The notes under the pieces are model-generated. The model had not been told where the DNA came from and made no database searches. It worked only from the letters and a program-made list of their open reading frames with translations. Below, in pieces: positions 14,029 through 64,000 of a stretch of DNA of 64,000 nucleotides. A program made the translations under genes and the position numbers. Origin of the DNA: Xestospongia bergquistia (lineage: Eukaryota; Porifera; Demospongiae; Haplosclerida; Petrosiidae); assembly GCA_963965975.1 (NCBI GenBank), contig OZ014416.1, forward strand, positions 7,006,001 through 7,070,000, written 5' to 3'. Numbering within the stretch: position 1 is the first letter of the stretch; every line of letters begins with the position of its first letter.

Positions 14029-15977
14029 ATGATCGAAGCTTGGATCATAAGATACGAAATCAATCTCCTCAAATGGAATACAGCCGTCTTACTGATATTT
14101 TCCTTGGCTTCATTAATAGCACCATCAATAGCTCCCAGTCCTCTCCTAATTCTCTTGTTGGTAGCCAATAATTTTGATATCTATACTATTGGCATTACAT
14201 CGTTCTCCTTCATACTCTTTATGTTAGTGATTAATAAACTGGTTCAAGCTACAATTGGAAGGAGATCTAGAACATTTATTGTATTGGTTGCTCTTACTAT
14301 AGTAATCAGTCCTGTATTGGCAACATTTTGGGTGGTTGGTTCTATCAGTATCTATCAAATTTTTATTGTTTCAGCTCCTATTATTTTGTTCACAGCTGTA
14401 GTACAGCGACTGGTTCTAAGACTAAAACACCTGATGAACAAGGAGATGAACTAGGTACATTATTGTAACATTGTAAATGTATCCTTAGTCATGCAACAAT
14501 GAAAAGCATGTTTGTCCTTCACGTTTTTTGTTGTATGTTCTTGTGTTGATAGAGCTAGTGTGTGTTATTATCTCAATGCTAATATTACTAAAAATAAATA
14601 AGAAACCATAATAATACATCTTTTCATAAAATGACTAGTATCAATATTTATAATCATTCGTAAGCCAATGCTAAAACTATAATTATAACTAAATTTACAT
14701 TTCAATACCAAAACAACAAACTTTAGTCTAAATTGGTTAGTTTCTTGAAAAAATTTATGTACCTTTAAAATCTATTACACACACATGTATATTAGGGCTT
14801 CATAACAGTAGCTCTGACTTCTAAATCATGTAGTTCCCTTATTCTTAGACTTTATACTGTTATACAATTAAATGGTTACATTAGAGATTTTGTGCTTCCT
14901 TGATTATATTTTCTCCAATAGATGACCATCAGTATGAAAGAATCTACAGAAAAACTATTAAAGAATAAAGAAACATTAAAAGTAAACATTATTCAATGTA
15001 TGACTATTGGTCCACCTACTGTTGGTAAAACTACATTAAAAGAACAATTACTAGCTAATATTGAAGATGATACAGTTATTGAGATAGGACATGATCAACA
15101 ACCTAGTAGTCCACTCTTTGACAAACTTAAGAGAGTTGAAGTAACAATAAGTGATTATAAAAACAAGCAGTCACCTGTTACAGTTGCATTACAAAGTAAA
15201 TATGCGTGGAAAGAACTCACATTCAGTGAAGAAGTAGTGGGTTATCTTAAAAAGAAGTCAAAGAAAAACCGTGAAGTTATTGCAGATATGTCAATTTGGA
15301 CTTACTTAATCAGCATGGTCATTGTCGCTCTTTATGTATTCAGTGCGGTAGTGACAATGTATGATAATCCCTTTAAGCTAATACCACTAAATTATGTATA
15401 CAGCATAATAAACGGTCTATTTTATCTTGTCATAATCATCATATCATTTGGTATTCCATTTGCAATTATTTTACTAGCAGTGGATTGGATATATCGTCGC
15501 TGGATAAAACCAAACACAAGAAGCTTCAGTCCTGTAAGTTTTGTTAGAGAAGCTATTGAGAAGATTAATGTGAGAACAGTACCACCTCTCTTCGACCAAA
15601 CTCTAACCATCTACTTCAGAGATTGTGGAGGACAGCCAGAATTCCATGAAGTTCTACCAGCTTTGGTCTCCCATTCCACATTATTTCTTCTTGTTTTCAA
15701 TCTTAATGAAGGCCTTGACACTCGATACAAAGTTACTTATAAAACTAATGATGGTGAGTTGTCTGATCCATATGTGAGCACATTCACAGTAAAACAAGCT
15801 CTCTTACAATGCTTAGCTAGTATTAGCTCAATTGGAAATTATTTAAATCCACCCCAGCTCTGCCTGATCCCTCATTCTCATACCGTTCCCTCGTTCTCCT
15901 TCGTCGCTGGCACCTATGTCAAGCACTTGTATGTCATTTCTGGCAACGTTGGTCATCTGAGTACATCACTAGTCTGA
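14029..15977 (+). pseudogene. Membrane GTPase / death-domain gene, unit 1 copy, broken and truncated
   Basis: Same gene as 28,945-32,525 with three lesions. Exon 1 (four TM segments) has lost four bases near 14,418, so its end runs into TAG at the splice site. Exon 2 (starting near 14,922) has one extra A in a run near 14,948. The net change is -3, but the TAG lies between the two lesions, so they do not rescue each other. At 15,857 the coding sequence, just past the G3 region, is replaced by a BEL/Pao retroelement tail, adding about 40 foreign codons before a stop at 15,977 and removing the G4, COR-like and death-domain parts. The P-loop GPPTVGKT, the TM hairpin and DCGGQPEF are still readable. 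The ATG in exon 2 is unlikely to be a native start because the intact copy reads that spot in another frame. Confidence 0.85.
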
Positions 15978-28944: not shown

Positions 28945-31900
28945 ATGATCGAAGCTTGGATCATAAGATATGAAATCAATCTCCTCAAATGGAATACAGC
29001 CGTCTTACTGATATTTTCCTTGGCTTCATTAATAGCACCATCAATAGCACCCAGTCCTCTCCTAATTCTCTTGTTGGTAGCCAATCATTTTGATATCTAT
29101 ACTATTGGCATTACATCGTTCTCCTTCATACTCTTTATGTTAGTGATTAATAAACTGGTTCAAGCTACAATTGGAAGGAGATCTAGAACATTTATTGTAT
29201 TGGTTGCTCTTACTATAGTAATCAGTCCTGTATTGGCAACATTTTGGGTGGTTGGTTCTATCAGTATCTATCAAATTTTTATTGTTTCAGCTCCTATTAT
29301 TTTCTTCACAGCTGTAGTACAGCGACTGGTTCTAAGTACTACTAAAACACCTGATGAACAAGGAGATGAACTAGGTACATTATTGTAACATTGTAAATGT
29401 ATCCTTAGTCATGCAACAATGAAAAGCATGTTTATCCTTCACGTTTTTTGTTGTATGTTCTTGTGTTGATAGAGCTAGTGTGTGTTATTATCTCAATGCT
29501 AATATTACTAAAAATAAATAAGAAACCATAATAATACATCTTTTCATAAAAAGACTATTATCAATATTGATAATCATTCGTAAGCCAATGCTAAAACTAT
29601 AATTATAACTATATTTACATTTCAATACCAAAACAACAAACTTTAGTCTAAATTAGTTAGTTTCTTGAAGAAATTTATACACCTTTAAAATCTATTACAC
29701 GCACATGTATATTAGGGCTTCATAACAGTAGCTCTGACTTCTAAATCATGTAATTCCCTTATTCTCAGACTTTATACTGTTATACAATTAAATGGTTACA
29801 TTAGAGATTTTGTGCTTCCTTGATTATATTTTCTCCAATAGATGAGCATCAGTATGAAAGAATCTACCGAAAACTATTAAGGAATAAAGAAACATTGAAA
29901 GTAAACATTATTCAATGTATGACTATTGGTCCACCTACTGTTGGTAAAACTACATTAAAAGAACAATTACTAGCTAACAATGAAGATGATAGTGTTATTG
30001 AGATAGTACATGATCGACCACCCAGTAGTCCACTCTTTGACAAACTTAAGAGAATTGAAGTAACAATAAGTGATTATAAAAACAAGCAGTCACCTGTTAC
30101 AGTTGCATTACAAAGTAAATATGCGTGGAAAGAACTTACATTCAGTGAAGAAGTAGTGGGTTATCTTAAAAAGATGTCGAAGAAAAATTGTGAAGTTATA
30201 GCAGATATGTCAATTTGGACTTACTTAATCAGCATGGTCGTTGTCGCTCTTTATGTATTCAGTGCGGTAGTGACAATGTATGATAATCCCTTTAAGCTAA
30301 TACCACTAAACTATGTATACAGCATAATAAACGGTCTATTTTATCTTGTCATAATCATTATATCATTTGGTATTCTATTTGCAATTATTTTACTAGCAGT
30401 GGATTGGATATATCGTCGCTGGATAAAACCAAACACAAGAAGCTTCAGTCCTATAAGTTTTGTTAGAGAAGCTATTGAGAAGATTAATGTGAGAACAGTA
30501 CCACCTCTCTTTGACCAAACTCTAACCATCTACTTCAGAGATTGTGGAGGACAGCCAGAATTCCATGAAGTTCTACCAGCTTTGGTCTCCCATTCCACAT
30601 TATTTCTTCTTGTTTTCAATCTTAGTGAAGGCCTTGACACTCGATACAAAGTTACTTATAAAACTAATGATGGCGAGGTGTCTGATCCATATGTGAGCAC
30701 ATTCACAGTAAAACAAGCTCTGTTGCAATGCTTAGCTAGTATTAGCTCAATTGGAAATTATTTGAATCCACCCCAAAAATTTTTTCACAAAATTAAGTCT
30801 ATTTTAATTTGGTATAGAGAAAAGCTTGTTCAATTATGGATTATGAAAGTAACATTGAAGTTCTCTAAGGTAATAATCATTGGCACTCACAAAGATTTAC
30901 TTGATAAAACTGGAGAAGCTGAAGAGAAAGTACAACACATCAATGATCAATTGGAGCTTGAACTAAAAGGCACAGACTGGTACACTAAAGATATGGTCAT
31001 ACCAACAGAGAATGACAGAATATTTTTTGGAGTGAACACGTTCAATCCTAATGACATCAATAAAATAAAAGATTTAGTTCATGAGGTTGCCTTAAATGGA
31101 AGTTATCAGTTAGATATACCTATTCCATGGTTGACATTTGAATTTTATATACGGAAATCACAAAAAAAGGTGATGACTTTGAATGAATGTCAAGAACTGG
31201 CGAAAAAAAGTGAAATATCTCGTGCAGATGAATTTTATGCAGCTTTATGGTTTTTCCATAATGTAGTGGGGATAATAAGGTATTTTAAAAATGTACCTGA
31301 ACTGTATAATATAGTCATTACTGATTCCCAACTACTGTTTGATATTGTTACAGACTTAATTGTTAACACCTTTAATTTCAAAAAGGGCATACGGAGAAGA
31401 AGTGAATATGACAAATTTCGTTCTTCAGGTCGTTTTACAAAGCATCATTTAGAACAGTGTGAAGCTGTTAAGGAGAAGTTGTTATCAGTAGAACAAGTAA
31501 TAGCTGTTCTAGAACATCTTGTTATCATTGCTCCTGTAGGCATAAATGAGTCTAATGAACAGGAGTATTTTCTTCCTTGTGTTTTAGTACATGCTTCTCT
31601 ACCATCTACTCCATTGTTACATAATGATAGTGACATTCCTCCTCTTCTTATTACATTCAAATGTCAATACACTCCAAGAGGTATCTTTAGCTCACTCATT
31701 GCTCGAATCCTTCTAGATGACAAAAACAAGTGGGAACTCTCTACAAAAGAAATATATAGAGATAGAGTTATCTTTTGTATCTTGGATTCAGGACACATTG
31801 TCACCATTACTAACTACTTTAGATTTCTCGAAGTTGTAGTAAAACCACCTCGTAGCAAAGATGAGAAAACAAATGATGACATTTATTTGTCTGTACTAAA

Positions 31901-32525
31901 TCATATTTCTCAATGCCTTTCATACATTACAAACAAACTTAACTACTCAACTACTGCAAGGCATACCTTTGGATTTTATTGTAAAGAACATGATGACATC
32001 TCCATGCTTGAACATTCTGCTGAATGTAATAGCAATGTTAAACCCAAATATACAAGGTGTAATTTTGAAGGATGTCTTACTGCAAACCTCACACCTCAAC
32101 AACAATTATGGTTCTATAAAGAAAGTAAGTTACCAAAACCCATATTCCTGACTTAAACATTATTTGATAGGTAAAGAGGTTATATCTCCTGAAGCAAAAA
32201 ATCCAAAATTTCCTCAAAGATTTGGTAAATAATGCATACATATCTACTTTGCTATTATAGATATCAATTTTCAGATATCACTCATCTTGACATTGTCACT
32301 TCTTATTTGAGAGACAAAAGATTCCCTAATTCATCATGGAAGTCACTTGGTCTTCACTTAGGTTTGTATCAACCCACACTAGATGATATTGACACAAAGA
32401 ACAGAGGAGATCCAGTAAAATGCTTGCAAGATTGTCTTTCTGCCTGGTTGAAGGAAGAAGACAAAGTGATAGAAAAGGGAGGGGCTAACATAGACTCATT
32501 AAGAAATGCTTTAAAGAACATCTAA
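28945..32525 (+). CDS. Multi-TM Roc-like GTPase with COR-like region and death domain, intact plus-strand copy
   Basis: Four exons join in phase (28,945-29,374; 29,842-32,124; 32,171-32,224; 32,275-32,525) to give 1,005 residues. Exon 1 has four hydrophobic segments and ends in GDEL. Exon 2 has the P-loop GPPTVGKT (173-180), a charged stretch, two TM segments (about 268-290 and 303-330), the G3-like DCGGQPEF (377-384) and the G4-like GTHKD (491-495). A COR-like region (about 560-800) includes ITRCSR-free but recognisable [15 protein letters not shown] and YFLPCVL stretches. The last exon is a death domain (about 923-1005). The TM hairpin sits inside the G domain, which would pin it to the membrane while leaving both halves cytosolic. 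The role is unknown; a membrane-anchored GTP switch recruiting death-domain partners is inferred. Upstream 28,800-28,944 is shared with the unit 1 copy. Confidence 0.85.
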
Positions 32526-36000: not shown

Positions 36001-36560
36001 TGATTATTAGCAAACGAGGAATAAGTAATTAACACATTAAAAGTATTGTTAAGATAGAGTCCCAAACTTGAACCATTTTGGACTGATACCCATTTCATTG
36101 TGACAACATTAGTCTCTGTAAAAACTAAACTAAAAGCTTTATATTTTTTTCGGTACCCACAATTTGTTATTGTTAATGATTTCAATGCAACATTGGTACT
36201 CACATCAATTATTATGTTTCCATTGTAATGGCATATTATTATTGAAGTAGATTGCATAATAGTCTCATGGAAGCCTTGTTCTATATGACCCAGTCCCTGT
36301 AGAGTTATATTATTTACACCATTGATCATCAATGTACCTTCTAGAGATTGACTTCCCTCTTGAAAGTAGAAGATTGTATTATTGGTGAAGAAAGTCATAT
36401 AATTAGAAACGTAATAGGAGAGTTTGTGACAAGGTGTGTGAGTAGGACAAGGTTTTCTATTATGATCTGCAGAGACATAATATTCAGAAGCAGTAAAATA
36501 TTCACTATAGATATGCAGTATCACTGATGTTATAAGATAGATTGAGCACCAGGTCATCAC
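33016..36560 (-). CDS. Secreted/surface beta-helix protein with C-terminal multi-TM domain, premature stop
   Basis: The ATG at 36,560 starts a hydrophobic signal-like segment and a YYVSADHNRKPCPTHTPC motif. Repeated short coils rich in Asn, Ser and Gly (NNSA, NNIT, GGGI) indicate a right-handed parallel beta-helix. A Cys-rich stretch (CGQCAKR...CGQC) precedes about six TM segments. Two frames meet at 35.3-35.4 kb; an 80-nt intron (35,404 to 35,325, GTACTT...CATCAG) joins them in frame to give 1,065 residues ending at TAA (33,283-33,285). The same frame stays open for 88 more codons to TAA at 33,016, encoding another hydrophobic segment (about 20 residues) and an acidic tail, so 33,283 looks like a nonsense mutation. 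Such beta-helix plus multi-TM proteins seem to be expanded in sponges (recollection); ligand unknown. Confidence 0.7.
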
Positions 36561-38751: not shown

Positions 38752-41700
38752 TTACAGTAGAAAAAAATAACAAATAATGACACCTACAATAAACAATACA
38801 GTGAATAAACAAGAGTAGATGCCCAATGTATGACTGCATCTCTGCATGTGTAGAAAAAGAATATAGTACATATTATGGTAATATAGTTACAGTATATAAA
38901 TCTAATAACATATCTCAGTAGCCAATTTATGTGTTTTAGATATACCTGCTTTTTTAGAGAACTTGTAGTAAATGTTGTATCATTTTCTGCACAAAATATA
39001 ATTAAGATAATATAGTGACCATACAGTAATTATAGTTACAATTACTAATGTAGTAAATGTATGTTAGAACAATGATAATGGACTACAGCTATTAGTATGA
39101 AATTCATACCTACACTTCAAGTATTAAGTAGTGATGCATATATACAACCAAAATGTATATGACTTGGTTAAAACAACCAATTTATTTTAACAGTGCTAGC
39201 TATATAGTATAGTGCAAGTAATATAGTAATAGAAGGTTGTCTATTTAGTTATTGAATACTCCAAATTAGGAAATGTACTAGGTGTTATAGTGGTTATTAT
39301 AATAATATCAATTATAATATATTATATTTGATTATAGGGAGTTACTCTACTATACAATACAATGATATGTACTTGGTTTAATTCCAAGAGAATTACGAAT
39401 CTCATTAGCTAGGGATTTATTCTTTAGTGGACCTTCTAAGACACTAATAATATTATTCCATGTCACTGGAGTGGGCTCATTGTTAAACCAGCTCTGTAAC
39501 ATCTTGTCCAACTTAACTTGGTTAGTGAAGTGTGAATTATGGAATCCATTAATGGTGTTAGCATCAACTCCGAGTAGACTTCCAATCTCATCCCACTGAG
39601 TGGACACAGGAGAAAGTAAGTTTAGCAGCATATGTTTATCAGGTTTAGTAGCTGCATGTGAAACTTAGTAAATAGATCAAATAGTTTCTATGTTATTATA
39701 CCTTCACATGAGACTTCACTATGTCGAAAAATTGACACTATAAAAATATAAGGAAAAAGATGGATTTATTGACATGTCTTTATGTACTAAGACATTATCA
39801 TTTGAGGGCAATACTAGAAGCATACATACATAAATTCTCTTTAAAGCCTCACATCTTTTATCAAACCATATTTGCTGCTGTGGTGATAGAACTGCTGTCA
39901 GGTCACCATCAAGACTACACATTGTATGTGAGAACTCAACAATAGCAGGATGATCTTCTATGGAGCTGTCAGTATGTTCTTTACAATAAAAACCAAAAAA
40001 GTGATCTGCAGTATCTGTGTAGTTGAGATTTTGTCTGACATCATTAAGACAATGACTAATATAATGTTGAATGGACACATACACATCTCCTTTACTCTCT
40101 GTAGAACCACGAGGGGGTTTCACAATAATCTCAAGAAATCTAAAGAAGTTAGTAATAGTCACAATATGTCCTAATTTGACAAGACGAAATTTAATTTGAT
40201 TTCTTTTTATATCTTCTGAAGAGAGCTCCCACTTGTCTTTACCATCAAGAAGCATTCTAGCAATGAGTAAGCTAAAGATACCTCTTGGAGTGTAATGACA
40301 TTTGAATGTAATGAGAAGAGGAGGAATGTTACCATCATTACATAACAATGAAGTAGATGGTAGAGAAGCATGTACAAGAACACAAGGGAGAAAATACTCC
40401 TGTTCATTAGACTCATTTATACCTACAGAAGCAATGATAACAAGATGTTCTAGAACAGCTATTACTTGTTCTACTGATAATAACTTCTTTTTAACAGCTT
40501 CACACTGTTCTAAATGATGCTTTGTAAATCGACCAGATAAGCGAAACCTGTCGTGTTCACTTTTTGTCTTTATACGCCTTTTAAAGGAAAATGTATTTAC
40601 AATTAAGTCTGTCACTAAATCAAAGAGTAGCTGAGGATCAGTAATGACTACATTCTGTAGTTTTGGTACGTTTTTAAAATACCTTATTGTCCCTATTTTA
40701 TTGTGTAGGAACCAAAGTGCTGCATTAAATTCATCTCCAAGAGAAATGCTACATTCTTGTGAAAGACTTTGACATTCCTTTAAAGAAATTACCTTCTTTA
40801 CAAACTTTTGCATACAGAAGTCAAATACCAACCATGATACTGGTATTTCAAACTGATAGTCTCCATTTAAAGCTACCTCATTAACTAGATCTTTCACTTG
40901 TTTAACATCACTTGGGTTGAAGGTGTTCACTCCAAGAATAGGATTGCCACTTTCTGTTCGTACAATCATATCCCTAAAGTACCAGTCTGTGCCTTTTAAT
41001 TCATTTTCAAACTGATTGTTGATATAAAAAACTTTATCATCAGCCTCTCCAGTGTCTCCAAGTTTATCTTTGTGAGTCCCAATGATGATAACTTTTGAAA
41101 TTGTCGATTTTTCTTTTTTCTGTAAAATTTTAACTATCATTTTCCACAACAACATAAACATTAATTTGACCGTGTTCATTTGTGGCTTTGAATACTTTCC
41201 AAATGAGCTAATACTAGCTAGACATTGTAGAAGAACTTGTTTAACAGTGAAACTACTCACATATGGATCAGATACTTCATTACTAGTTTTATAAGCAACT
41301 TTGTATTGAGTTTCAAGATGCTCAGAAAGATTGAAGACAAGAAAGAACAAGGTGGAGTGTGGCACTAAAGCAGGGAGAACTTCATGGAACTCTGGTTGTC
41401 CTCCACAATCTCTGAAGTAGATGGTAAAAGTTCGATCAAAGAGAGACTGCACTTTCTTAATATTGTTCTGCTGAAGTGTTTTTTTCATGAGGTCATCTGC
41501 AGTTATGATATTAGCTTTGGTTGTTTTAACACACCATGAATCTAGCCAATTTACAGTCATTGCAATAACACATAATGTAAAATAGAAAGAACCCATAATA
41601 CCATACACGACATTGATGTCTCTAACAGGACTCTGTATTGAAAAAGGTTTTTGCAGTTTTTCAACATTAAGGCTTATATCATACACACGTAAATACCAGA

Positions 41701-43733
41701 ATATAGCTATAACAAGAGGTAAGGCCATCATAGTTAAAAAATTTGTCCAGAACAATACTTCATTAGTACTGACATATCTGTGTTTATTTTGTGACATTGT
41801 TTTGAGACAGCCAATCATTTGTTCATCAATTGTGCAAGTTTTCCAATTATATTTATCTACTGCAACTGTACAAGGTAACTGCTTAGTTTTTATTTCTTCT
41901 AGTGTTATTTGAGCTATTTTAACTTCTTCACATACTGGGCTACTAGGTGGTTGATAATCTGATGTATCAAATGTATGATTAGCAAGCAGATGCTTTTTCA
42001 AGGTAGTTTTACCAACAGAAGGTAGACCAACAGTCATACATTGAATAATGTTTACTCTTAATGATTCTTCTCTTTCTAGTTTTTCTTGGAAGATACGCAT
42101 GTAATTTTGTTCGTCTGCAAAAAATTAAGTGGATATAATTATACGTTGATACACATTGAATATTTACACACATACATTGACAAGTGTTGTTTAGTTTAAT
42201 TGTTAACATTTCACTTTTGTTTAAATATTAACTATCAACTTTACATTTTAACTACTTTAGTATTAAATTAGTAATAAAATGGAAAATAATTAATTTTTAG
42301 TTTTAATTACTAAAAGTCAAGGGCTGGGCTTTTTAACAAATGTATTTTTCAGACTATTTTCAGTATGTAGCAATTTCGATTTATTTAAGACTCAAAAGAT
42401 AAATTAGAACTCAAAACTAGTCAAAAGAATACAATATCTAAGGATTCAAGTACTTTCCGCGACAGTCACTGCTAATTTTGTCAAAATTAAAAACGTGATA
42501 TTTCCATTTCCGCTAATAGAGGAAATATTAGTATGTGTCATTAATTAATGATGTGACAAATGATAGTGTAATAGTAATTAACCTCGCTGTGCGTGGGCGC
42601 ATAGCGAGTAGTGTGTCTGTTACCCTGGCAAATGGCTTTGAACTACTTTAACTCAGCAAATACTGCACTAGTAGCCACCAAACTATAGTGGAGGGTAGCA
42701 AAACTTCTGTACTTCTTAAAAATACTGCCAAAAGGAGCGTGAAACGAACAAAAACCTTAAAAAGTCTGAAACACCTTTGATAAAAAGCACAGCTTTCAGT
42801 GAAGACTTAAAAATTCAATAAAAACCTCCTGGATACAGCTTATGACATTTTCTAACTTTTTTTAAGTGAGAATTTTGGCCAAAATACTTCTTTGGAAAGT
42901 TATGACAGTTTTACTAACTTTTGGCAGTTATATTTGTCGATACATTGAGCGCGAACTAAAAATACTAGCACCATAGCTGTCATTGGAGAATCATTAACTT
43001 TTACTTAGAAGTTGGAAAGTATTGGACATTTTGTCAATTAGCGTGCAAAGTACCCACTAAAAGGCAAAGCTTTTTTCCCCTTTGATTGAAGAGAAATGCT
43101 GAGTCATCAATAATCAGCTTGCGCATCACGTGAGATTACGTCACTTGAGGAGGTCTCTGGATCACTCAAGCACTTTAGTGCATTTTATTAATAATTTGAA
43201 TCTTTACTAAAAAAGATTTAACTAAAGTTTTAGTTTACTAAAACAACACACGTATGCACACACATACCTGTTTCATTGGGATTGATCTTAGTGTGTCTTC
43301 TTAAAGTACTTCTAACAAGCATCATAGCTAAAGATGCATACATACATATCATGAATGAAGAAAATACACTGTTAGCATTAACATAACCAATTATCCACCA
43401 TGACAAAAGTAAAGGACTTGGTATAAGACAGATTGGTATATAGAATGAGATTAATGTTTTAAATGGTCTCCATATTCTTACCATTGCTTGAACTATGAGG
43501 TTGATTATCAATACAAAAGTACCTCCAACAAACACAATAACAATAACACTATTAAATACCTCACGTACATCACAAGTGGATAGAGGTTCTTGGCAAGAAA
43601 TATATTCAGCAAATATGTTGAAAACTAAAAAGAGTTTACCAGAGGTAGGTGCTTCTGCCAAATATAGTACTAGATTCGATAGTAAAAAGAGCATCAAAGA
43701 AAACACCAAGAAAAGAAACAAGACTTTAGTCAT
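38752..43733 (-). CDS. Multi-TM Roc-like GTPase / death-domain protein with C-terminal TM exon (subtype A), intact
   Basis: Six exons join in phase to 1,049 residues: 43,268-43,733 (four TM segments, ending NPNET); 39,853-42,114 (P-loop GLPSVGKT, TM hairpin, DCGGQPEF, GTHKD, COR-like region); 39,702-39,713 (12-nt micro-exon); 39,373-39,651 (death domain with WDEIGSLLGVDANT); 38,946-38,986 (linker NDTTFTTSSLKKQ); 38,752-38,841 (RCSHTLGIYSCLFTVLFIVG then TM and stop). The final exon adds a seventh TM segment after the death domain, so the chain would be tethered at both ends. The second P-loop residue is Leu instead of Pro, at a position not required by the GxxxxGKT consensus. Intron 1 holds about 600 bp of extra sequence. 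Paralogue: 55,129-59,936. Confidence 0.82.
42570..43195. mobile_element. Unclassified insertion in intron 1 of subtype A gene
   Basis: About 625 bp present here but absent at the matching place in 59,400-59,430. It is less AT-rich than its surroundings, begins with a small inverted repeat (CTCGCT ... AGCGAG around 42,583-42,607) and has no coding potential. A non-autonomous transposon is likely, but termini and target duplication are not clear. Confidence 0.45.
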
Positions 43734-48165: not shown

Positions 48166-48791
48166 CTACGAGGTTCTGCCATGATCTAAACAAGAGAAAC
48201 AATATTGTGTTAATTGTGCCACATTTTTCAAATGTAGCTTAATACATAAAAAAGCATGTCATACATGAGTACATGTCACTCATTCATGATCTAATAAATA
48301 ATTATAACATTATAATCCATTATATACATACTTGCTAAAGTATTTCGAATCTTATTAGATAATGATTTCTTCTTTAGTGGTCCCTCAAAGACACTGACTA
48401 TGTTATGCCATGTTGGAGTTGGTGCATTATCCAACCAGCTCTGTAACATCTTGGACATCTTAACTTGGTTAGATAACTTAGAAGTATGTAATCCCTCAAT
48501 AATGTCAGAATCTACTCCAAGTAGATCACCAATCTCTTGCCACTTAGCACTGACAGAAGCAAGTAATGCCAGCAATGTGTGTTTTTCTGGTTTAGTAGCT
48601 AAAATGGCTATATACAAAATGATAAATAATACGTACTTTATTTACTTTATGTAAATATTACATATTTTATCTATACTATTATATATTCATACCTTCAAGT
48701 AATAGTAAATCAATTTCATTGTCAGAAACTACAGTATTATCTTCATTGGTAGAAACTATAGTATACAAATAAAAAAATAAGTAACTATATG

Positions 48792-48849
<58 letters not shown>

Positions 48850-51800
48850 TGTTAAAATACAAATGAAGAAGACTTTAATATATCATAGTAAACCATTATA
48901 ATATAAGTGTCAACCTATGCACAGGACGAACTTACTTTTTCCATTAAACCATAGCTGTTCTTGTGGTAATAGATATGCTTTAAGACTTCTATTACGACTG
49001 CATGTTGTGTATGTAGGACAATCATTATTACATATAGCAGGATGATCTATAGAATGGCTCTTATGTTCCTTACAATAAAAGCCAAAGTAATGGTCTGCAG
49101 TATCTTTGTAATTAAGCTGATTCTTCACATAAGTTAGACAACGAGAAATATAATGTTGGACAGTGACATAAACATTTTTATCACTTCTTCCATTAAAGCC
49201 ACGAGGAGATTTTACAACAATCTCAAGGAACCTAAAAAAGTTGGTCAAAGTAACATTATGCCCAGTCTTAACAAGATAAAATTCAACTTGATCTCTAAAG
49301 ATTTCTTCTGATGAGAGTTTCCACTTGTCTTTACCATCCAGAAGGATTTTAGCAATGAGTGAGCTAAAGATACCTCTTGGAGTGTAGTGACATTTGAATG
49401 TAATAAGAAGAGGAGGAATGTCACTATAATTATGTAACAATGGAGTAAATGGAAGAGAAGCATGTACTAGAACACAAGGGAGAAAATACTCCTGTTCATT
49501 AGACTCATTTATACCTACAGGAGCAATGATAACAAGATGTTCTAGAACAGCTATTACTTGTTCTACTGATAACAATTTATCCTTAACAGCTTCACACTGC
49601 TCTAAATGATGTTTTGTAAAACGACCAGATAAACGAAACCTGTCATGTTCACTTCTTTTCTTTATTCGTCTTTTAAAGGAAAATGTATTTACAATTAAGT
49701 CTGTCACAATATCAAAGAGTAGCTGAGGATCAGTAATGACTACATTATGTAGTTTTGGTACATTTTTAAAATACCTTATTGTCCCTATTTTATTGTGTAG
49801 GAACCAAAGTGCTGCATTAAATTCATCTCCAAGAGAAATGCTACATTCTTGTGAAAGACTTTGACATTCCTTTAAAGAAATTACATTCTTTTCAAACTTT
49901 TGCATACAGAAGTCAAATAACAACCATGATACAGGTATATCAAATTGATAGTCTCCATTTAAAGCTACCTCATTAACTAGATCTTTCACTTGTTTAATAT
50001 CACTTGGGTTGAAGGTGTTCACTCCAAGAATAGGATTGCCACTTTCTGTTCGTACAATCATGTCCCTAAAGTACCAGTCTGTGCCTTTTAATTCATTTTC
50101 AAACTGATTGTTGATATGAAAAACTTTATCATCAGCGTCTCCAAGTTTGTCTTTGTGAGTGCCAATGATGATTACTTTTGAAATTGTCATTTTTACTTTT
50201 TTCCTCAAACATTTAACTAGACTTTTCCACAACCAAATAAACATTAATTTGACCTTGTTCATTTGTGGCTTTGAGTACTTTCCAATTGAGCTAATACTCG
50301 CTAGACATTGTAGAAGAACTTGTTTAACAGTGAAACTACTAACATATGGATGAGATACTTTACCAATACTAGTTTTATAAGTAACTTTGTATTGAGTTTC
50401 AAGAGGCTCAGAAAGATTAAAGACAAGAAAGAACAAGGTGGAGTGTGGCACTAAAGCAGGGAGAACTTCATGGAACTCTGGTTGTCCTCCACAATCTCTG
50501 AAGTAGATAGTAAAAGTTCGAACAAAGAGAGACTGTACTGTCTCAATAATGTTCTGCCGAAGTGATTTTTTCACAAGGTCATCTGCAGTTATGATATTAG
50601 CTGTGGTTGTTTTAACAGAGCATGAATATAGCCAATTTAATGTCAATGCAATAACACTAAACATAAAAGAGAAAGAACCAATAATATTATACACAATACT
50701 GCTATCAAAAGCATACTGTACTGGAACACGTTTCTGCATACGTATTTTATAATCATCATCATCTTCTTCATACAGTATAAAAAACCAACAACTAAGAAGA
50801 GCTAAGGCCATTATGATTATATAATTGGTCCAGAACAATACTTCATTAGTACTGACATATCTGCGTTTATTCTGTGACATTGTTTTGAGACAGCCAATCA
50901 TTTGTTCATCAATTGTGCATATTTCCCAATTATATTTATCTACTGCAACTGTACAAGGTAACTGCTTAGTTTTTAGTTCTTCTAGTGTTATTTGAGCTAT
51001 TTTAACTTCTTCACATACTGGACTACTAGGTTGTTGATAATCTGGTGTGTCAAATGTATGATTAGCAAGCAGATGCTTTTTCAAGGTAGTTTTACCAACA
51101 GAAGGTGGACCAACAGTCATACATTGAATAATATTCACCTTTAATGATTCTTCTCTTTCTAGTTGTTCTTGAAAGATATGCATGTATTTTTGTTCATCTG
51201 GAAAAAAAATTAAGTGATTATATTAATGCAATTTGAATATTTACACTCACATACATTGACTAGTGTTGTTTTAGTTTAATTGCTAACATTTTCTTTTTCT
51301 TTATACATTAATTGGCAACTTTATAGTTTCACTATTTTAATATTAGTAATTAACATTAGTTGTTAAATGGAAAACATTTTCAGTTTTAATTACTGCAAGG
51401 CTTTTTAATCATGTACACTTCAGACTATTTTCAGATTTCAGTATGTAGCAAATCCAATTTATTGAAGACTCAAGATAAATTAGAACTAAAAATTAGAATG
51501 CGATATCTAAGTATGGTGGTACTCAATTTAACAGTAACTTTCATAAATTTAACACGTGTTGTCGTTTCCGGTAGTAGAGGAAATATTATTAATATTAATT
51601 TTGTCATTAATTAATGACACACTAGTAATAGAATATTCTTAACTAACATAGATTTTAGTGAAAGGTTAAGTTTACTAAAACAAAACAAACAAACACACAC
51701 ACACACCTGTTTCACTGGCATTGATTTTAGTAACTCTTCCTAAAGTAATTCTAGTATATATCATGGCTAAAGATGTATATACAAATACCAGGAATGAATG

Positions 51801-52166
51801 AAGTGCACTGATAGTATTAATATCACCATTTATCCACCATGACATAAGTAAAGGAGTTGGTATAAGACAGATTGGTATATAGAATGAAATTAATCTTTTA
51901 AATGGTCTCCATCTTCTTAACACTGCTTGAACTATAACATTGACGATCAATACACCAACAGCAATTATAATGAAATATACAAATATACCAAGTATATCAA
52001 GAGTGAATGGTCCTCGGCCAGTAATATATGGAGCAAATATACCAAAAACTAAAAAGAGTTTACCAGAGATAATTCCTTCTCTTGATGGATATTGTAATAG
52101 ATTCGACAGGAAAAAGAATATCAAATAAAACACCGAAAAAAGAAACAAGACTTTAGTCAACTTCAT
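48166..52166 (-). CDS. Multi-TM Roc-like GTPase / death-domain protein with short soluble tail (subtype B), intact
   Basis: Five exons join in phase to 1,023 residues: 51,707-52,166 (four TM segments; ATG at 52,166, starting MKLTKVLF); 48,936-51,197 (P-loop GPPSVGKT, TM hairpin with an acidic EEDDDD loop, DCGGQPEF, GTHKD, COR-like region); 48,693-48,755 (acidic linker STNEDNTVVSDNEIDLLLLE); 48,332-48,598 (death domain, WQEIGDLLGVDSD); 48,166-48,185 (NHGRTS and stop). It lacks the C-terminal TM exon of subtype A and instead has an acidic linker before the death domain. All G motifs are intact. Poly(A) signal near 48,093. The intron 2 TA microsatellite (48,797-48,842) may be unstable. The near-identical paralogue at 60,827 has a stop codon. 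Confidence 0.85.
48797..48842. repeat. (TA)n microsatellite in an intron
   Basis: About 46 bases of uninterrupted TA within a longer TATATACA tract between the large exon and the acidic-linker exon of the subtype B gene. The paralogous site (61,435-61,450) is shorter and interrupted. Confidence 0.9.
51565..51583. promoter_or_regulatory. TTTCC-N9-GGAAA dyad in intron 1
   Basis: A 19-base inverted motif found at the same intron 1 place in three GTPase genes (42,507-42,525; 51,565-51,583; 59,349-59,367), followed by a TTAATTAATGA block. The same motif lies upstream of both ankyrin GTPase genes (12,834-12,852; 27,854-27,872). It may be a transcription factor site of palindromic type; function is inferred. 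Confidence 0.35.
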
Positions 52167-55128: not shown

Positions 55129-58100
55129 TTATTCAGTAATAATGGTAGAAAGATAACAAATACTAGTAATGACACCTACAATAAACAATAGAGTGAACAA
55201 ACAAGAGTAGATGCCCAATGTATGACTGCATCTCTGCATGTGTAGAAAGAGAATAAGGTGTATGGTAATATAGTTACAGTATATAAATCTAATAACATAT
55301 CTCAGTAGCCAATTTATGTGTTTAAGATATACCTGCTTTTTTAGAGAACTTGTAGTAAATGTTGTATCATTTTCTGCACAAAATATAATTAAGATAATAT
55401 AGTGACCATACAGTAATTATAGTTACAATTACTAATGTAGTAAATGTATGTTAGAACAATGATAATGGACTACAGCTATTAGTATGAAATTCATACCTAC
55501 ACTTCAATGTATTAAGTATGTAGTGGTTCATATATATAACCAAAATGTATATGACTTGGTTAAAACAACAAAGTTATTTTAACAGTGCTAGCTATATAGT
55601 ATAGTGCTAGTTATACAGTAATAGAAGGTTGTCTATTCTAGTTATTGAATACTCCAAATTAGGAAATGTACTACGTGTATTGTAGTTATTATAATATTAT
55701 CAATTGTAATAATAGGGAGTTACTCTACTATACAATGCAATGATAAGTACTTGGTTTAATTCCAAGAGATTTACAAATCTCATTAGCTAGGGATTTATTG
55801 TTAAGTGGACCTTCTAAGATACTAATAATATTATTCCATGTCACTGGAGTGGGCTCATTGTTAAACCAGCTCTGTAACATCTTGTCCAACTTAACTTGGT
55901 TAGTTAAGTTTGAAGTATGTAATCCATTAATGGTGTTAGCATCAACTTTAAGTAAACCTCCAATCTCTTCCCAATGAGCAGACACAGGAGAAAGAAAATT
56001 TAGCAGCATATGTTTATCAGGTTTTGTAGCTGTGAAACTTAGTAAATAGATCAAATAGTTTCTATGTTATTATACCTTCACATGAGACTTCACTATGTTG
56101 AAAAATGGACACTATAGAAATATAAGGAAAAAGATGGATTTATTGACATGTCTTTATGTACTAAGACATTATCATTTGAGGGCAATACTAGAAGCATACA
56201 TACATAAATTCTCTTTAAAGCCTCACATTTTTTATCAAACCATATTTGCTGTTGTGGTGATAGAACTGCTGTCTTGTCACCATCAAGACTACACATAGTA
56301 TGTGAGAACTCAACAATAGCAGGATGATCTTCTATGGAGCTGTCAGTATGTTCTTTACAATAAAAACCAAAAAAGTGATCTGCAGTATCTGTGTAGTTGA
56401 GATTTTGTCTGACATCATTAAGACAATTACTAATATAATGTTGAATGGACACATACACATCTCCTTTACTCTCTGTAGAACCACGAGGAGGTTTCACAAT
56501 AATCTCAAGAAACCTAAAGAAGTTAGTAATAGTCACAATATGTCCTAATTTGACAAGACGAAATTTAATTTGATTTCTTTTTATTTTTTCCGAAGAGAGC
56601 TCCCACTTGTCTTTACCATCAAGAAGCATTCTAGCAATGAGTAAGCTAAAGATACCTCTTGGAGTGTAATGACATTTGAATGTAATAAGAAGAGGAGGAA
56701 TGTTACCATCATTATGTAACAATGGAGTAGATGGAAGAGAAGCATGTGCTAGAATACAAGGGAGAAAATACTCTTGTCCATTAGACTCATTTATACCTAC
56801 AGGAGCAATGATAACAAGATGTTCTAGAACAGCTATTACTTGTTCTACTGATAATAACTTCTCTTTAACAGCTTCACACTGTTCTAAATGATGCTTTGTA
56901 AATCGACCAGATAAGCGAAACCTGTCGTGTTCACTTTTTGTCTTTATACGCCTTTTAAAGGAAAATGTATTTACAATTAAGTCTGTCACCAAATCAAAGA
57001 GTAGCTGAGGATCAGTAATGACTACATTCTGTAGTTCAGGTACATTTTTAAAATACCTTATTGTCCCTATTTTATTGTGTAGGAACCAAAGTGCTGCATT
57101 AAATTCATCTCCAAGAGAAATGCTACATTCTTGTGAAAGACTTTGACAATCCTTTAAAGAAATTACCTTCTTTTCAAACTTTTGCATACAGAAGTCAAAT
57201 ACCAACCATGATAATGGTATTTCAAACTGATAGTCTCCAGTTAAAGCTACCTCATTAACTAGATCTTTCACTTGTTTAATATCACTTGGGTTGAAGGTGT
57301 TCACTCCTAGGATAGGATTCCCACTTTCTGTTCGTACAATCATGTCCCTAAAGTACCAGTCTGTGCCTTTTAATTCATTTTCAAACTGATTGTTGATATG
57401 AAAAACTTTATCATCAGCCTCTTCAGCGTCTCCAAGTTTATCTTTGTGAGTACCAATGATGATAACTTTTGAAATTGTCATTTTTACTTTTTTCCTCAAA
57501 CATTTAACTAGACTTTTCCACAACCAAATAAACATTAATTTGACCCTGTTCTTTTGTGGCTTTGAGTACTTTCCAATGGAGCTAATACTAGCTAGACATT
57601 GTAGAAGAACTTGTTTAACAGTGAAACTACTAACATATGGATGAGATACTTTACCATTACTAGATTTATAAGTAACTTTGTATTGAGTTTCAAGATGATC
57701 AGAAAGATTAAAGACAAGAAAGAACAAGGTGGAGTGTGGCACTAAAGCAGGGAGAACTTCATGGAACTCTGGTTGTCCTCCACAATCTCTGAAGTAGATG
57801 GTAAAAGTTCGATCAAAGAGAGACTGCACTGTCTTGATAATATTCTGCTGAAGTGTTTTTTTCATGACATCATCCGCAGTTATGATATTAGCTTTGGTTT
57901 TTTAAACACAGTTTGAATATAACCAATTTAGTGTCAGTACAATAGCACATAATGTAAAATAAAAAGAACCAATAATACTATGCACAAAATTTGCATCAAG
58001 AGCACTCTGTATTGGAATACGTTTCTGCATTTTATAGTGTTCTTCATCTTCATCATCAAGCCGCTTTTCATTAACTAATATAGCCCAACATAAAAGAAGA

Positions 58101-59936
58101 GGTAAGGTCATCATGATTATATAATTGGTCCAGAACAATACTTCATTAGTACTGACATATCTGCTTTTATTTTGTGACATTGTTTTGAGACAGCCAATCA
58201 TTTGTTCATCAATTGTGCATATTTTCCAAGTATATTTATCTACTGCAACTGTACAAGGTAACTGCTTAGTTTTTGTTTCTTCTAGTGTTATTTGAGCTAT
58301 TTTAACTTCTTCACATACTGGGCTACTAGGTTGTTGATAATCTGGTGTCTCAAATGTATAATTAGCAAGCAGATGATTTTTCAAGGTAGTCTTACCAACA
58401 GAAGGTGGACCAACAGTCATACATTGAATAATGTTTACTCTTAATGATTCTTCTCTTTCTAGTTTTTCTTGGAAGATACGTATGTAATTTTGTTCATCTG
58501 CAAAAAATTAAGTGAATATATGAATTAATACAACTTGAATGTTTACACACATACATTGACAAATGTTGTTTTACTTTAATTGTTAACATTTGCTTTTTGT
58601 TTAAATAGCAACTATCAACTTTACATTTTAACTACTTTAGTATTACATTAGTAATAAAAAATAAAAATTAAGCTTTAGTTTTCATTACTAAAGTCAAGGA
58701 CAGGCTTTTTATCAAAATGTAAATTTCAAAACTTTTTCAGCATGTAGTCATTTTAATTAATTTAAGACTCAAAAGACAAAGTATAACTCAAAACATGTCA
58801 AAGGAATACGATAATGTAGCGCGGGTGTTGGTATGCAATTAAAGGTAGTGTGAAATATGAAATCATTAAATTGATATGTTAAAGCGTAGAGATATATCTA
58901 CTGCCAACGTTGTCTTTAAAATCGATGCAGTCGCCAAAGAATTTGGATTTTCTCTCAAAGAGAAAGAAAAAAATTACAAAAAGAGTTTGTCTATTTTTTG
59001 GTGAAGCTTGTCTGATTGCATTTCAAGTTTCTCATTGCTTAGCACATCTACAACTATGGAGTATAGACAGGAATATTCATCGTTCTTGTTTTTTATAATA
59101 ACACGATCTTTGGGTTTACTGCTTAAGTCAGAGCAGCAGGAGCAGGAAGATACACATCCACACCTACTTCAATAATATTCATATTTCACACTACTTCTAT
59201 TTGCATACTAACACATTCCTTACTGGGGACAACTCATGTGACCACTAACCAGACCTACTTACGCTTGCGAGTAGGTCTGGGGACGATACTAAGTAGTATA
59301 CAAGTTCATTCGTCACTGCTAGTTTTCTGAAAATTAATGACATTACAATTTCCGGTATTAAAGGAAATATTAGTAATGTCAATTAATTAATGAGATAACA
59401 AGTGATATTAACTATAACTTAAATCCTTACTAAAATAGATTTTTGCTAAAGTTTTAGTTTAGTTTACTAAACAACACACACACACCTGTTTCACTTGCTT
59501 TGATTTTAGTGTGTCTTCCTAAAGTACTTCGAGCATATATCATGGCTAAAGATGTATATACAAATACCATAAATGAATAAAATGAACTGGTAGCATTGAG
59601 ATAACCATTTATCCACCATGACATAATTAAAGGACTTGGTATAAGAGAGAATGGTATATAGAATGAAATTAATCTTTTTAATAGTCTCCATCTTCTTACC
59701 ATTACTTGAACTATAACATTGATTATCAATACAAAAACCCCTAGAACTAGAACAATAACACTAAATATTGGAAGTGTCTCCAGAGCTAATGATTTGGGGT
59801 TAACGATAACTTCAGCATATACGCCGAAAACTAAAATGAGTTTGCCAGCAATACGTGCTTCTCTTGTTGAGCTCAAATATTGTACTAGATTCGCCAGTAA
59901 AAAGAACATCAAAGAAAACACCAATAAAAGAAACAA
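55129..59936 (-). pseudogene. Subtype A membrane GTPase / death-domain gene, second copy, with in-frame stop
   Basis: Same exons as 38,752-43,733: exon 1 59,486 to about 59,936; exon 2 56,227-58,497; micro-exon 56,076-56,087; death domain 55,751-56,029; linker 55,333-55,373; TM tail 55,129-55,233. Two lesions. A 2-base deletion near 59,941, just after the usual ATG, puts that ATG out of frame; an internal Met 10 codons on could still start the TM region. In exon 2, GTT AAA of the paralogue reads GTT TAA (stop at 57,902-57,904), after the TM hairpin and before G3; the frame then stays open to the end. P-loop GPPSVGKT and DCGGQPEF are intact. The body is otherwise unbroken, so the loss is recent, or the stop is polymorphic. 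Confidence 0.75.
58813..59283. mobile_element. Unclassified insertion in intron 1 of the second subtype A gene
   Basis: About 470 bp with no match at the equivalent place in the paralogue (about 42,440). It ends with a short hairpin, CCAGACCTACT at 59,249-59,259 and its complement AGTAGGTCTGG at 59,270-59,280. A short frame at 58,910-59,098 (+) looks like chance. Likely a non-autonomous element. Confidence 0.45.
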
Positions 59937-60826: not shown

Positions 60827-63806
60827 CTAGGAAGTTCTGCCATGATCTAAACAAGAGAAACAATATTGTGTTAATTGTGCCACATTTTTCAAATGTCACT
60901 TAATACATAAAAAGCATGTCATAGATGAGTACATGCAACTCATTCATGATCTAATAAATAATTATAACATTATAGTCCATTATATACATACTTGCTAAAG
61001 TATTTCGAATCTTATTAGCTAATGATTTCTTCTTTAGAGGTCCCTCTAAGACACTGATTATGTTATGCCATGTTGGAGTTGGTGCATTATCCAACCAGCT
61101 CTGTAAAATCTTGGACATCTTAACTTGGTTAGATAAGTTTGAAGTATATAATCCTTCAATAATGTCAGAATCTACTCCAAGTAGATCACCAATCTCTTGC
61201 CACTTAGCACTGACAGAAGCAAGTAATGTCAGCAATATGTGTTTTTCTGGTTTAGTAGCTAAAATGGCTATATACAAAATGATAAATAATACATACTTTA
61301 TCTATACTATTATATATTCATACCTTCAAGTAATAGTAAATCAATTTCATTGTCAGAAACTACAGTATCATCTTCATTGGTAGAAACTATAGTATACAAA
61401 TAAAAAAAATAAGTAAGTATATATATACACACACATATATATATATATATATTTATATATACATATATGTTAAAATACAAATGAAGACTTTAATATATCA
61501 CAGTAAGCCATTATAATATATGTGTAAAACTAAAAACTTACTTTTTCCATTAAACCATAGCTGTTCTTGTGGTAATAGATATGCTTTAAGACTTCTATTA
61601 TGACTACATGTTGTATATGTAGGACAATCAGTATTACATATAGCAGGATGATCTTCTATAGAACTGCTCTTATGTTCCTTACAATAAAAGCCAAAGTGAT
61701 GGTCTGCAGTATCTGTGTAATTAAGGTGATTTTTCACATAAGTTAGACAATGACAAATATAATGTTGGACAGAAACATAAACATTTTTATCACTTCTTCC
61801 ATTAAAGCCACGAGGAGATTTTACAACAATCTCAAGGAACCTAAAAAAGTTGGTCAAAGTAACATTATGCCCAGTCTTAACAAGATAAAATTCAACTTGA
61901 TCTCTAAAGATTTCTTCTGATGAGAGTTTCCACTTGTCTTTAAAATCAAGAAGGATTTTAGCAATTAGTGAGCTAAAGATACCTCTTGGAGTGTAGTGAC
62001 ATTTGAATGTAATAAGAAGAGGAGGAATGTCACTATCATTATGTAACAATGAAGTAAATGGAAGAGAAGCATGTACTAGAACACAAGGGAGAAAATACTC
62101 CTGTTCATTAGACTCATTTATACCTACAGGAGCAATGATAACAAGATGTTCTAGAACAGCTATTACTTGTTCTACTGATAACAGTTTATCCTTAACAGCT
62201 TCACACTGCTCTAAATGATGTTTTGTAAATCGACCAGATAAACGAAACCTGTCATGTTCACTTCTTTTCTTTATTCGTCGTTTAAAGGAAAATGTATTTA
62301 CAATTAAGTCTGTCACAATATCAAAGAGTAGCTGAGGATCAGTAATGACTACATTATGTAGTTTTGGTACATTTTTAAAATACCTTATTGTCCCTATTTT
62401 ATTGTGTAGGAACCAAAGTGCTGCATTAAATTCATCTCCAAGAGAAATGCTACATTCTTGTGAAAGACTTTGACATTCCTTTAAAGAAATTACATTCTTT
62501 TCAAACTTTTGCATACAGAAGTCAAATAACAACCATGATACAGGTATATCAAATTGATAGTCTCCATTTAAAGCTACCTCATTAACTAGATCTTTCACTT
62601 GTTTAATATCACTTGGGTTGAAGGTGTTCACTCCAAGAATAGGATTGCCACTTTCTGTTCATACAATCATGTCCCTAAAGTACCAGTCTGTGCCTTTTAA
62701 TTCATTTTCAAACTGATTGTTGATATGAAAAACTTTATCATCAGCGTCTCCAAGTTTGTCTTTGTGAGTGCCAATGATGATTACTTTTGAAATTGTCATT
62801 TTTACTTTTTTCCTCAAACATTTAACTAGACTTTTCCACAACCAAATAAACATTAATTTGACCTTGTTCATTTGTGGCTTTGAGTACTTTCCAATTGAGC
62901 TAATACTAGCTAGACATTGTAGAAGAACTTGTTTAACAGTGAAACTACTAACATATGGATGAGATACTTTACCAATACTAGTTTTATAAGTAACTTTGTA
63001 TTGAGTTTCAAGAGGCTCAGAAAGATTAAAGACAAGAAAGAACAAGGTGGAGTGTGGCACTAAAGCAGGGAGAACTTCATGGAACTCTGGTTGTCCTCCA
63101 CAATCTCTGAAGTAGATAGTAAAAGTTCGAACAAAGAGAGACTGTACTGTCTCAATAATGTTCTGCCGAAGTGATTTTTTCACAAGGTCATCTGCAGTTA
63201 TGATATTAGCTGTGGTTGTTTTAACAGAGCATGAATATAGCCAATTTAATGTCAATGCAATAACACTAAACATAAAAGAGAAAGAACCAATAATATTATA
63301 CACAATACTGCTATCAAAAGCATACTGTACTGGAACACGTTTCTGCATACGTATTTTATAATCATCATCATCTTCTTCATACAGTATAAAAAACCAACAA
63401 CTAAGAAGAGCTAAGGCCATTATGATTATATAATTGGTCCAGAACAATACTTCATTAGTACTGACATATCTGCTTTTATTCTGTGACATTGTTTTGAGAC
63501 AGCCAATCATTTGTTCATCAATTGTGCATATTTCCCAATTATATTTATCTACTGCAACTGTACAAGGTAACTGCTTAGTTTTTAGTTCTTCTAGTGTTAT
63601 TTGAGCTATTTTAACTTCTTCACATACTGGACTACTAGGTTGTTGATAATCTGATGTCTCAAATGTATGATTAGCAAGCAGATGCTTTTTCAAGGTAGTT
63701 TTACCAACAGAAGGTGGACCAACAGTCATACATTGAATAATATTCACCTTTAATGATTCTTCTCTTTCTAGTTGTTCTTGAAAGATATGCATGTATTTTT
63801 GTTCAT
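60827..63806 (-). pseudogene. Subtype B membrane GTPase / death-domain gene, second copy, with nonsense codon; 5' exon outside the window
   Basis: Exons match 48,166-51,197: exon 2 61,542-63,806; acidic linker 61,324-61,386; death domain 60,992-61,258; tail 60,827-60,846. Exon 1 lies beyond 64,000. The sequence is nearly identical to the intact paralogue, with P-loop GPPSVGKT, TM hairpin, DCGGQPEF and GTHKD. One codon differs fatally: CGA (Arg) in the paralogue is TGA here (near 62,658-62,660), just after the FRDMIV stretch, between G4 and the COR-like region. The frame stays open on both sides. A single C-to-T change at a CpG explains it; it may be an allele or a very recent pseudogene. Confidence 0.8.
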
Positions 63807-64000
63807 CTGCAAAAAAATTAAGTGATTATATTAATACAATTTGAATATTTACACTCACATACATTGACTAGTGTTGTTTTAGTTTAATTGCTAACATTTT
63901 CTTTTTCTTTATACATTAATTGGCAACTTTATAGTTTCACTATTTTAATATTAGTAATTAACATTAGTTGTTAAATGGAAAACATTTTCAGTTTTAATTA

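Follow-up and report, generated by a model that had tools for sequence, protein, structure and literature searches.

A putative membrane variant of Roco GTPases in the sponge Xestospongia bergquistia, with two predicted membrane spans inside the Roc G domain

We analysed a stretch of 64,000 nucleotides (the window) from the sponge Xestospongia bergquistia, corresponding to positions 7006001-7070000 of contig OZ014416.1 in a genome of 146 Mb and 21 contigs. The gene at 28945..32525 on the + strand, here called c1, is modelled as three exons (28945-29374, 29842-32124 and 32275-32525) encoding 987 aa, and both of its introns have GT/AG junctions. Exon 1 (28945..29374) is an open frame of 143 aa plus one base, which ends at the donor AACTAG/GTACAT (the slash marks the junction) and encodes about four hydrophobic spans, resolved on the Kyte-Doolittle scale as four separate segments at residues 28-46, 54-72, 84-102 and 111-129. 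Exon 2 (29842..32124) runs from the acceptor CCAATAG/AT to the donor AAGAAA/GTAAGT with 760 codons in one frame from 29844, and holds the P-loop, the hairpin, G3, G4 and COR without a stop. The motifs follow each other in the order first read from the DNA: the G1 P-loop GPPTVGKT (residues 173-180, 29928..29951), the G3 motif DCGGQP at the end of strand b3 (residues 377-382, 30540..30557) and the G4 motif THKD (residues 492-495, 30885..30896). The two transmembrane segments described between G1 and G3 were also recovered, as span 1 at residues 271-289 (30222..30278, Kyte-Doolittle 2.24) and span 2 at residues 312-330 (30345..30401, Kyte-Doolittle 3.32), while the spacing of G1 and G3, originally put at about 197 residues, is 204 in the gene model. 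P0001, a near-identical protein, likewise has exactly two Kyte-Doolittle spans in this gap.

The region after the G domain, which had been called COR-like, gives a COR-A match at residues 570-682 (31119..31457; PF16095, E 3.3e-7) that scores 30.7 bits, under the cut-off of 35.3, and it has a COR fold in the structure model described below. The same profile scores 30.6 bits in c2 and 33.1 bits in c3 with hmmscan, and reaches 35.7 bits, above the cut-off, in c3 and c5 in a six-frame search of the genome. The Pfam Roc profile matched the second half of the c1 G domain alone, with 16.6 bits against a cut-off of 27. Exon 3 (32275..32525) encodes a Death-like domain and the stop codon. Death is the top Pfam match in the corresponding exons of all five copies c1-c5, the region for which a death domain had initially been proposed, but the curated cut-off of 22.6 bits is passed in only two of the five (c2, 28.2; c4, 25.2) and not by c1 (16.1, E 0.013), c3 (14.3) or c5 (15.4). 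No kinase, LRR or NACHT domain was found among the Pfam matches to the modelled 987-aa protein at E values up to 10, a range in which the HMMER filters drop most matches above about 0.1.

A tblastn search of the window and 100 kb on each side revealed eight full-length copies of exon 2 (c1-c8), five of them in the window, together with several fragments. Besides c1, the window holds on the − strand c2 (39353..43733; hydrophobic exon 43733-43268, GTPase-COR frame about 42115-39722, Death exon frame 39664-39353), c3 (48294..52166; 52166-51707, about 51198-48937 and 48641-48294, in the same order), c4 (55731..59909; 59909-59486, about 58498-56096 and 56066-55731) and c5 (60954..63807), a near-copy of c3 whose hydrophobic exon lies past the window end. 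The three-part layout of hydrophobic exon, GTPase-COR exon and Death-like exon is thus repeated in c2-c5, and Death-like exons lie downstream of each of c1-c5, the copies examined for them. The upstream hydrophobic exon ends in a phase-1 ACAG/GT donor in c2 to c6 and c8, a donor of this kind was looked for but not found in c7, and a T-rich AG acceptor precedes exon 2 in all of c2-c8. The four N-terminal transmembrane segments of the earlier note hold as a count for c1 but not as a rule of the family, since the same measure gives 3 to 6 spans in the hydrophobic exons of c2-c8. Its statement that at least five loci of the window share the layout stands for the five full exon-2 copies, although two of them have in-frame stops in exon 2, c4 just past the hairpin and c5. 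In the right flank, c7 has a frame break in exon 2. The P-loop of c8 (contig positions 7085898-7083628) reads GPPSVGET, with glutamate in place of the lysine, in an otherwise open exon 2, so that c8 is possibly a non-binding member. The copies c1, c2, c3 and c6 are open across 754-802 codons with the motifs in place, the P-loop of c2 starting with GLP instead of GPP.

A recent copy of the 5' half of the hairpin gene, comprising exon 1 and the G domain to about residue 455, is found at 14029..15857 on the + strand (tblastn identity 98% and 95%), and no COR match was found within it. The window also contains two very similar TRIM-NHL genes of 757 aa at 2433-4706 (+) and 18035-20308 (+), the first with RING, B-box and NHL repeats by Pfam, and a pair of distant Roco-like genes at 7348-9342 (−) and 22365-24431 (−), about 82-90% identical by tblastn. 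In this pair GPPCVGKT or GPPCVRKT and DSGGQP lie about 200 residues apart, separated by a soluble, Ser-rich insert, and the copy at 7348-9342 gave no Pfam match. The spacing of the TRIM-NHL pair, the duplicated Roco-like gene and the 5' half of the hairpin gene suggests a segmental duplication in the window. Two adjoining frames without a Pfam match occupy 33283-36560 (−), of which one looks like repeat sequence and the second contains several hydrophobic stretches, and a death-like peptide is encoded at 5221-5015 (−).

The hairpin frame is free of stops in all eight copies, while the other two forward frames have 4-12 stops each. Splice sites were checked in seven copies (c1, c2, c3, c5, c6, c7 and c8; the c4 row ends at its stop just past the hairpin). 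None of the seven has a GTRAG donor between the P-loop and the first span, and no in-frame donor-acceptor pair around the hairpin was found among them. Seven weak GT dinucleotides are common to all seven, whereas no downstream AG is; one AG recurs in the six close paralogs but lacks a pyrimidine tract. The reading of the hairpin as an intron, named in the earlier note as a finding that would overturn its interpretation, is rejected in silico on the open frames and this splice-site check. It also belongs to a wider artefact explanation, in which the hairpin segment would be a retained intron, or the G domain a false join of two different genes. The AT-rich host genome, the short introns of this region and the fact that Pfam Roc matches one half at a time are compatible with such an artefact, which is nevertheless largely refuted, and in our estimate very improbable, given the open hairpin frames, the outcome of the splice-site check, the single fold in the model and the dozens of proteins from other records in which the hairpin layout is encoded in one reading frame.

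In AlphaFold models of c1 exon 2 and of the relative P0071, the P-loop and DCGGQP belong to one domain, and the possibility raised at the outset that they might lie in separate domains is rejected by both models, which are built on alignments of the same family and are not independent of each other. The insert follows b2/b2' and precedes b3 in both, which corrects its earlier assignment to the switch I region: it comes after switch I, between b2 and b3. In exon 2 numbering, span 1 lies inside model helix 100-146 and span 2 inside helix 156-193. The joint between span 2 and b3 (194-203) has a pLDDT under 50, and the stretches 48-68 and 75-91 are also of low confidence. The Roc-COR module matches Roco proteins in fold, with a Ras-like Roc G domain carrying G1, G3 and G4 and with COR directly after Roc, and on the basis of the model fold the predicted protein is a member of the Roco family. 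Together, sequence and model make this anatomy well supported. In 31 of 44 proteins the density of lysine and arginine is higher beside the spans than within the loop, a weak positive-inside bias.

To place the hairpin among its relatives, we ran three protein searches, with 156, 90 and 108 matches. The first two (with 120 listed of the 156 matches of the first used) yielded 194 proteins; the 167 with both motifs entered the span counts, the 27 without the motif pair were left out, and proteins first found in the third search stand outside both the counts and the tree. Among P0001-P0064, every one of the 49 proteins with both motifs shows at least two gap spans at a threshold of 1.2 (44 two, 5 three), the other 15 lacking a motif and being excluded. 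At the stricter threshold of 1.6 some of these gaps show one span or none (for example, none in P0041, P0045 and P0060), and the 167 proteins divide into 110 without a gap span, 49 with one to three and 8 with five to nine; the 110 include weak-span members of the two-span clade (P0041, P0045, P0060 and P0067). With the laxer threshold and three window proteins added, 102 are without a span, 6 have a single one, 53 have two or three and 9 have at least four. In a FastTree phylogeny of 160 rows, from which ten near-duplicates had been removed and which was built from the sequence starting just before DxGGQ, one branch separates the 49 two-span rows from the rest and another branch does so for the 9 many-span rows, both with a support of 100. 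Every row of the two membrane clades has at least two spans at 1.2, whereas the 102 rows outside them comprise 96 without a span and 6 with a single one.

The G1-G3 gap of the 110 proteins without a span at the strict threshold measures 129-261 residues. A gap of about 200 residues is therefore not unique to the hairpin family, since many Roco relatives have span-free gaps in this range. These relatives (for example P0069, P0072, P0075-P0119, most of P0126-P0194 with both motifs, and the same-genome loci L030-L037, L041 and L043) share with c1, as far as they were aligned, the P-loop, the conserved ST and W, DxGGQ, THxD and COR, but where c1 has membrane spans their gap is of hydrophilic sequence, which in several of them is acidic or rich in Ser/Pro. 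The many-span relatives (P0065, P0066, P0068, P0070, P0071 and P0121-P0124) have the same insertion point as c1, and P0071 has one Roc fold in its model; their insert contains four or more spans at 1.2, and at 1.6 P0124 has two and the other eight have five to nine. The view that no described family has this layout is thus tempered by the Roco fold and by the long gap common in relatives, while the hairpin does define a clade of its own. These relationships suggest that a Roco family with a long b2-b3 insert made that insert membrane-spanning once or twice; the reverse path, a loss of spans, seems less likely, on a tree whose root is not known and whose span-free rows have long branches. The same order of elements also occurs in another sponge, Amphimedon queenslandica, whose proteins are related to c1 at 37% identity. 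P0055 and P0060 are UniRef entries from this species named 'Death domain-containing protein'. In P0055 an N-terminal span is followed by the P-loop at 103, by two spans and by G3 at 270; its COR-A match scores 32.3 bits, below the cut-off, and no Pfam Death match appeared at E up to 1. The weaker spans of P0060 are visible at the laxer threshold alone.

Conservation was followed in an alignment of 57 rows (3 from the window and 54 of P0001-P0064). Of these rows, 55 retain the P-loop lysine (one has E, one a gap), all have the G3 aspartate and 56 the G3 glutamine, and the T, H and D of THxD are each present in every row. Averaged across up to 600 sampled pairs, identity amounts to 16% for the hairpin, compared with 49% from G1 to the conserved W, 67% from G3 to G4 and 58% in COR. 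For six paralogs, a set without c5 (near-copy of c3) and without c1 (too diverged, with a hairpin synonymous distance to c2-c5 of 1.5 to beyond measure), the hairpin has a pN/pS of 1.17 (0.87-1.65) and the flanks have one of 0.56 (0.37-0.86), and the outer loop is the most variable part, with a dN of 0.53. Positive selection in the hairpin is not proven in these six paralogs, as the interval includes 1, and the variation may reflect either diversifying selection or lost constraint on all but hydrophobicity. A pN/pS near 1 would fit a non-coding segment too and was not counted as evidence for coding. The hairpin exceeds the flanks in synonymous differences too, and part of the contrast may therefore come from gene conversion of the flanks.

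Hairpin variation of this kind could also arise by relaxed constraint in a decaying cluster, in which the array would consist largely of pseudogenes. The broken frames of c4, c5 and c7, the GK to GE change of c8 and the 5'-half copy at 14029 point in this direction. We consider general decay improbable, since c1, c2, c3 and c6 keep long open frames with their motifs, the flanks evolve under the constraint reflected in their pN/pS, P0001 is a 99% identical protein in another record, and motif-bearing relatives exist in Amphimedon.

The succession of Roc and COR is shared with LRRK1, LRRK2, Chlorobium tepidum Roco and Methanosarcina barkeri Roco2, from which c1 differs by its long two-span b2-b3 insert, its N-terminal hydrophobic exon and the lack of a kinase or LRR match. 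The THxD of the c1 family resembles the GTHLD of LRRK2 at G4, whereas its G3, DxGGQ, is unlike that of LRRK2, which reads DFAGR. In G-protein alpha subunits a whole soluble helical domain is inserted between a1 and b2; both these proteins and c1 have a domain between G1 and G3, but the c1 insert lies between b2 and b3. This is the position of the interswitch toggle of Arf-family proteins, a cytosolic sliding hairpin that links nucleotide state to the membrane, whereas in c1 the interswitch itself would cross the membrane. We know of no GTPase with a G domain interrupted by membrane spans, and a search of titles and opening abstracts in the open-licence literature, outside which most subscription journals fall, yielded none with spans inside a Roc or other G domain. 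According to extracts of one paper, DAPK1 combines Roc-COR with a death domain, its kinase preceding Roc, and in these extracts no membrane hairpin is described for it (PMC6337361); c1 would resemble DAPK1 if its Death-like exon, below the Pfam cut-off, is a death domain, and is unlike it in having no kinase match. The same extracts describe LRRK2 as a dimeric, more active Roco protein at membranes (PMC6337361). In brown algae, a non-conserved sequence inserted in the ROC domain (PMC11378527) and ROCO proteins whose C-terminal domain resembles transmembrane proteins (cited in PMC4104024) have been reported, and the extracts of these two papers describe no spans inside the G domain. Membrane-bound NLRs are reported from sponges in part of a further source (PMC12909245), and c1 differs from NLR (NACHT) receptors by the absence of NACHT from its Pfam matches.

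What appears to be new here, as judged from the sequences and models, is a membrane variant of the Roco GTPases, comprising the hairpin clade (49 rows) and the many-span clade. We propose, with a probability of about 0.6, that c1 represents a membrane-integral Roco GTPase with a Death-like end. In sequence and model its layout is an N-terminal hydrophobic exon, a full Roc G domain, COR and a Death-like domain, with the two-span hairpin replacing the interswitch (b2-b3) turn and adjoining both switches. The Roc-COR module would be held at the membrane by the stretch that connects the two switches. Two spans would leave the G-domain halves together on one side, most likely the cytosolic one. The span count of exon 1 varies by copy (3 to 6), so parity is not fixed and the overall sidedness is presumed. 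The fast-changing hairpin and the short outer loop would form the input side, and an event at or beyond the membrane would change the nucleotide state directly. Less surely, the protein would work as a membrane-bound nucleotide switch, in which COR-mediated dimerisation presents the Death domains and sets off cell death or an immune response. We infer that the protein inserts into the membrane, binds GTP, dimerises and signals for death, and a tight mechanical coupling of the hairpin to the switches would be tentative, given the low-confidence stretches of the model.

The hairpin could instead be a plain anchor, which sits in a permissive loop outside nucleotide switching and merely fixes a Roco death-domain switch to the membrane, with other domains or partners as regulators. 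The low-confidence joint between span 2 and b3 leaves room for such a role, and it would agree with the hypervariable hairpin (pN/pS near 1) and with the inserts of comparable length that occupy this position, free of spans, in relatives from this genome and beyond. We regard it as less likely, given that exon 1 already supplies several spans, which makes an extra anchor look redundant, that at least two spans are kept in 49 of 49 proteins with both motifs, and that the many-span clade carries a larger membrane domain at this position. Extending the proposed membrane-bound switch, one could tentatively, and with some doubt, picture a one-chain transmembrane receptor GTPase, in which the Roc interswitch runs through the membrane and back. 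A ligand or a membrane event acting on the hypervariable outer loop would directly move switches I and II, with dimerisation through COR and the assembly of death domains as the result. A single polypeptide would then unite receptor, G protein and death adaptor, and the tandem arrays would represent a diversified recognition repertoire in sponges. In view of LRRK2 at membranes and of the membrane-bound NLRs of sponges, membrane Roco proteins could plausibly serve sponge immunity.

Should the layout hold for the actual protein, it would mean that a membrane domain can be accommodated within a folded G domain, and these proteins would be natural constructs in which a Roco interswitch is physically tied to the membrane; the link of LRRK2 to membranes is medically important. 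They would also be a candidate class of membrane death or immune switches in early animals. The layout can be tested directly with short constructs.

The host genome contains at least 146 COR-A matches, many of them clustered, which by sequence is a very large Roco expansion in one animal genome. In a non-random set of 15 further host loci, picked by hand from different clusters and including one fetched too short, 13 have both motifs in frame (3 two-span, 10 span-free) and one is without G1. Among the many-span relatives, P0121, P0122 and P0123 are about 1220 aa long and have an extra hydrophobic stretch past COR, followed by a Cys-containing region that is possibly extracellular. In four distant relatives (P0181, P0185, P0187 and P0197), a NACHT NTPase and a COR-bearing Roco module occur in one chain according to precomputed Pfam assignments, confirmed by Pfam for P0181, and each of these chains thus carries two different nucleotide switches.
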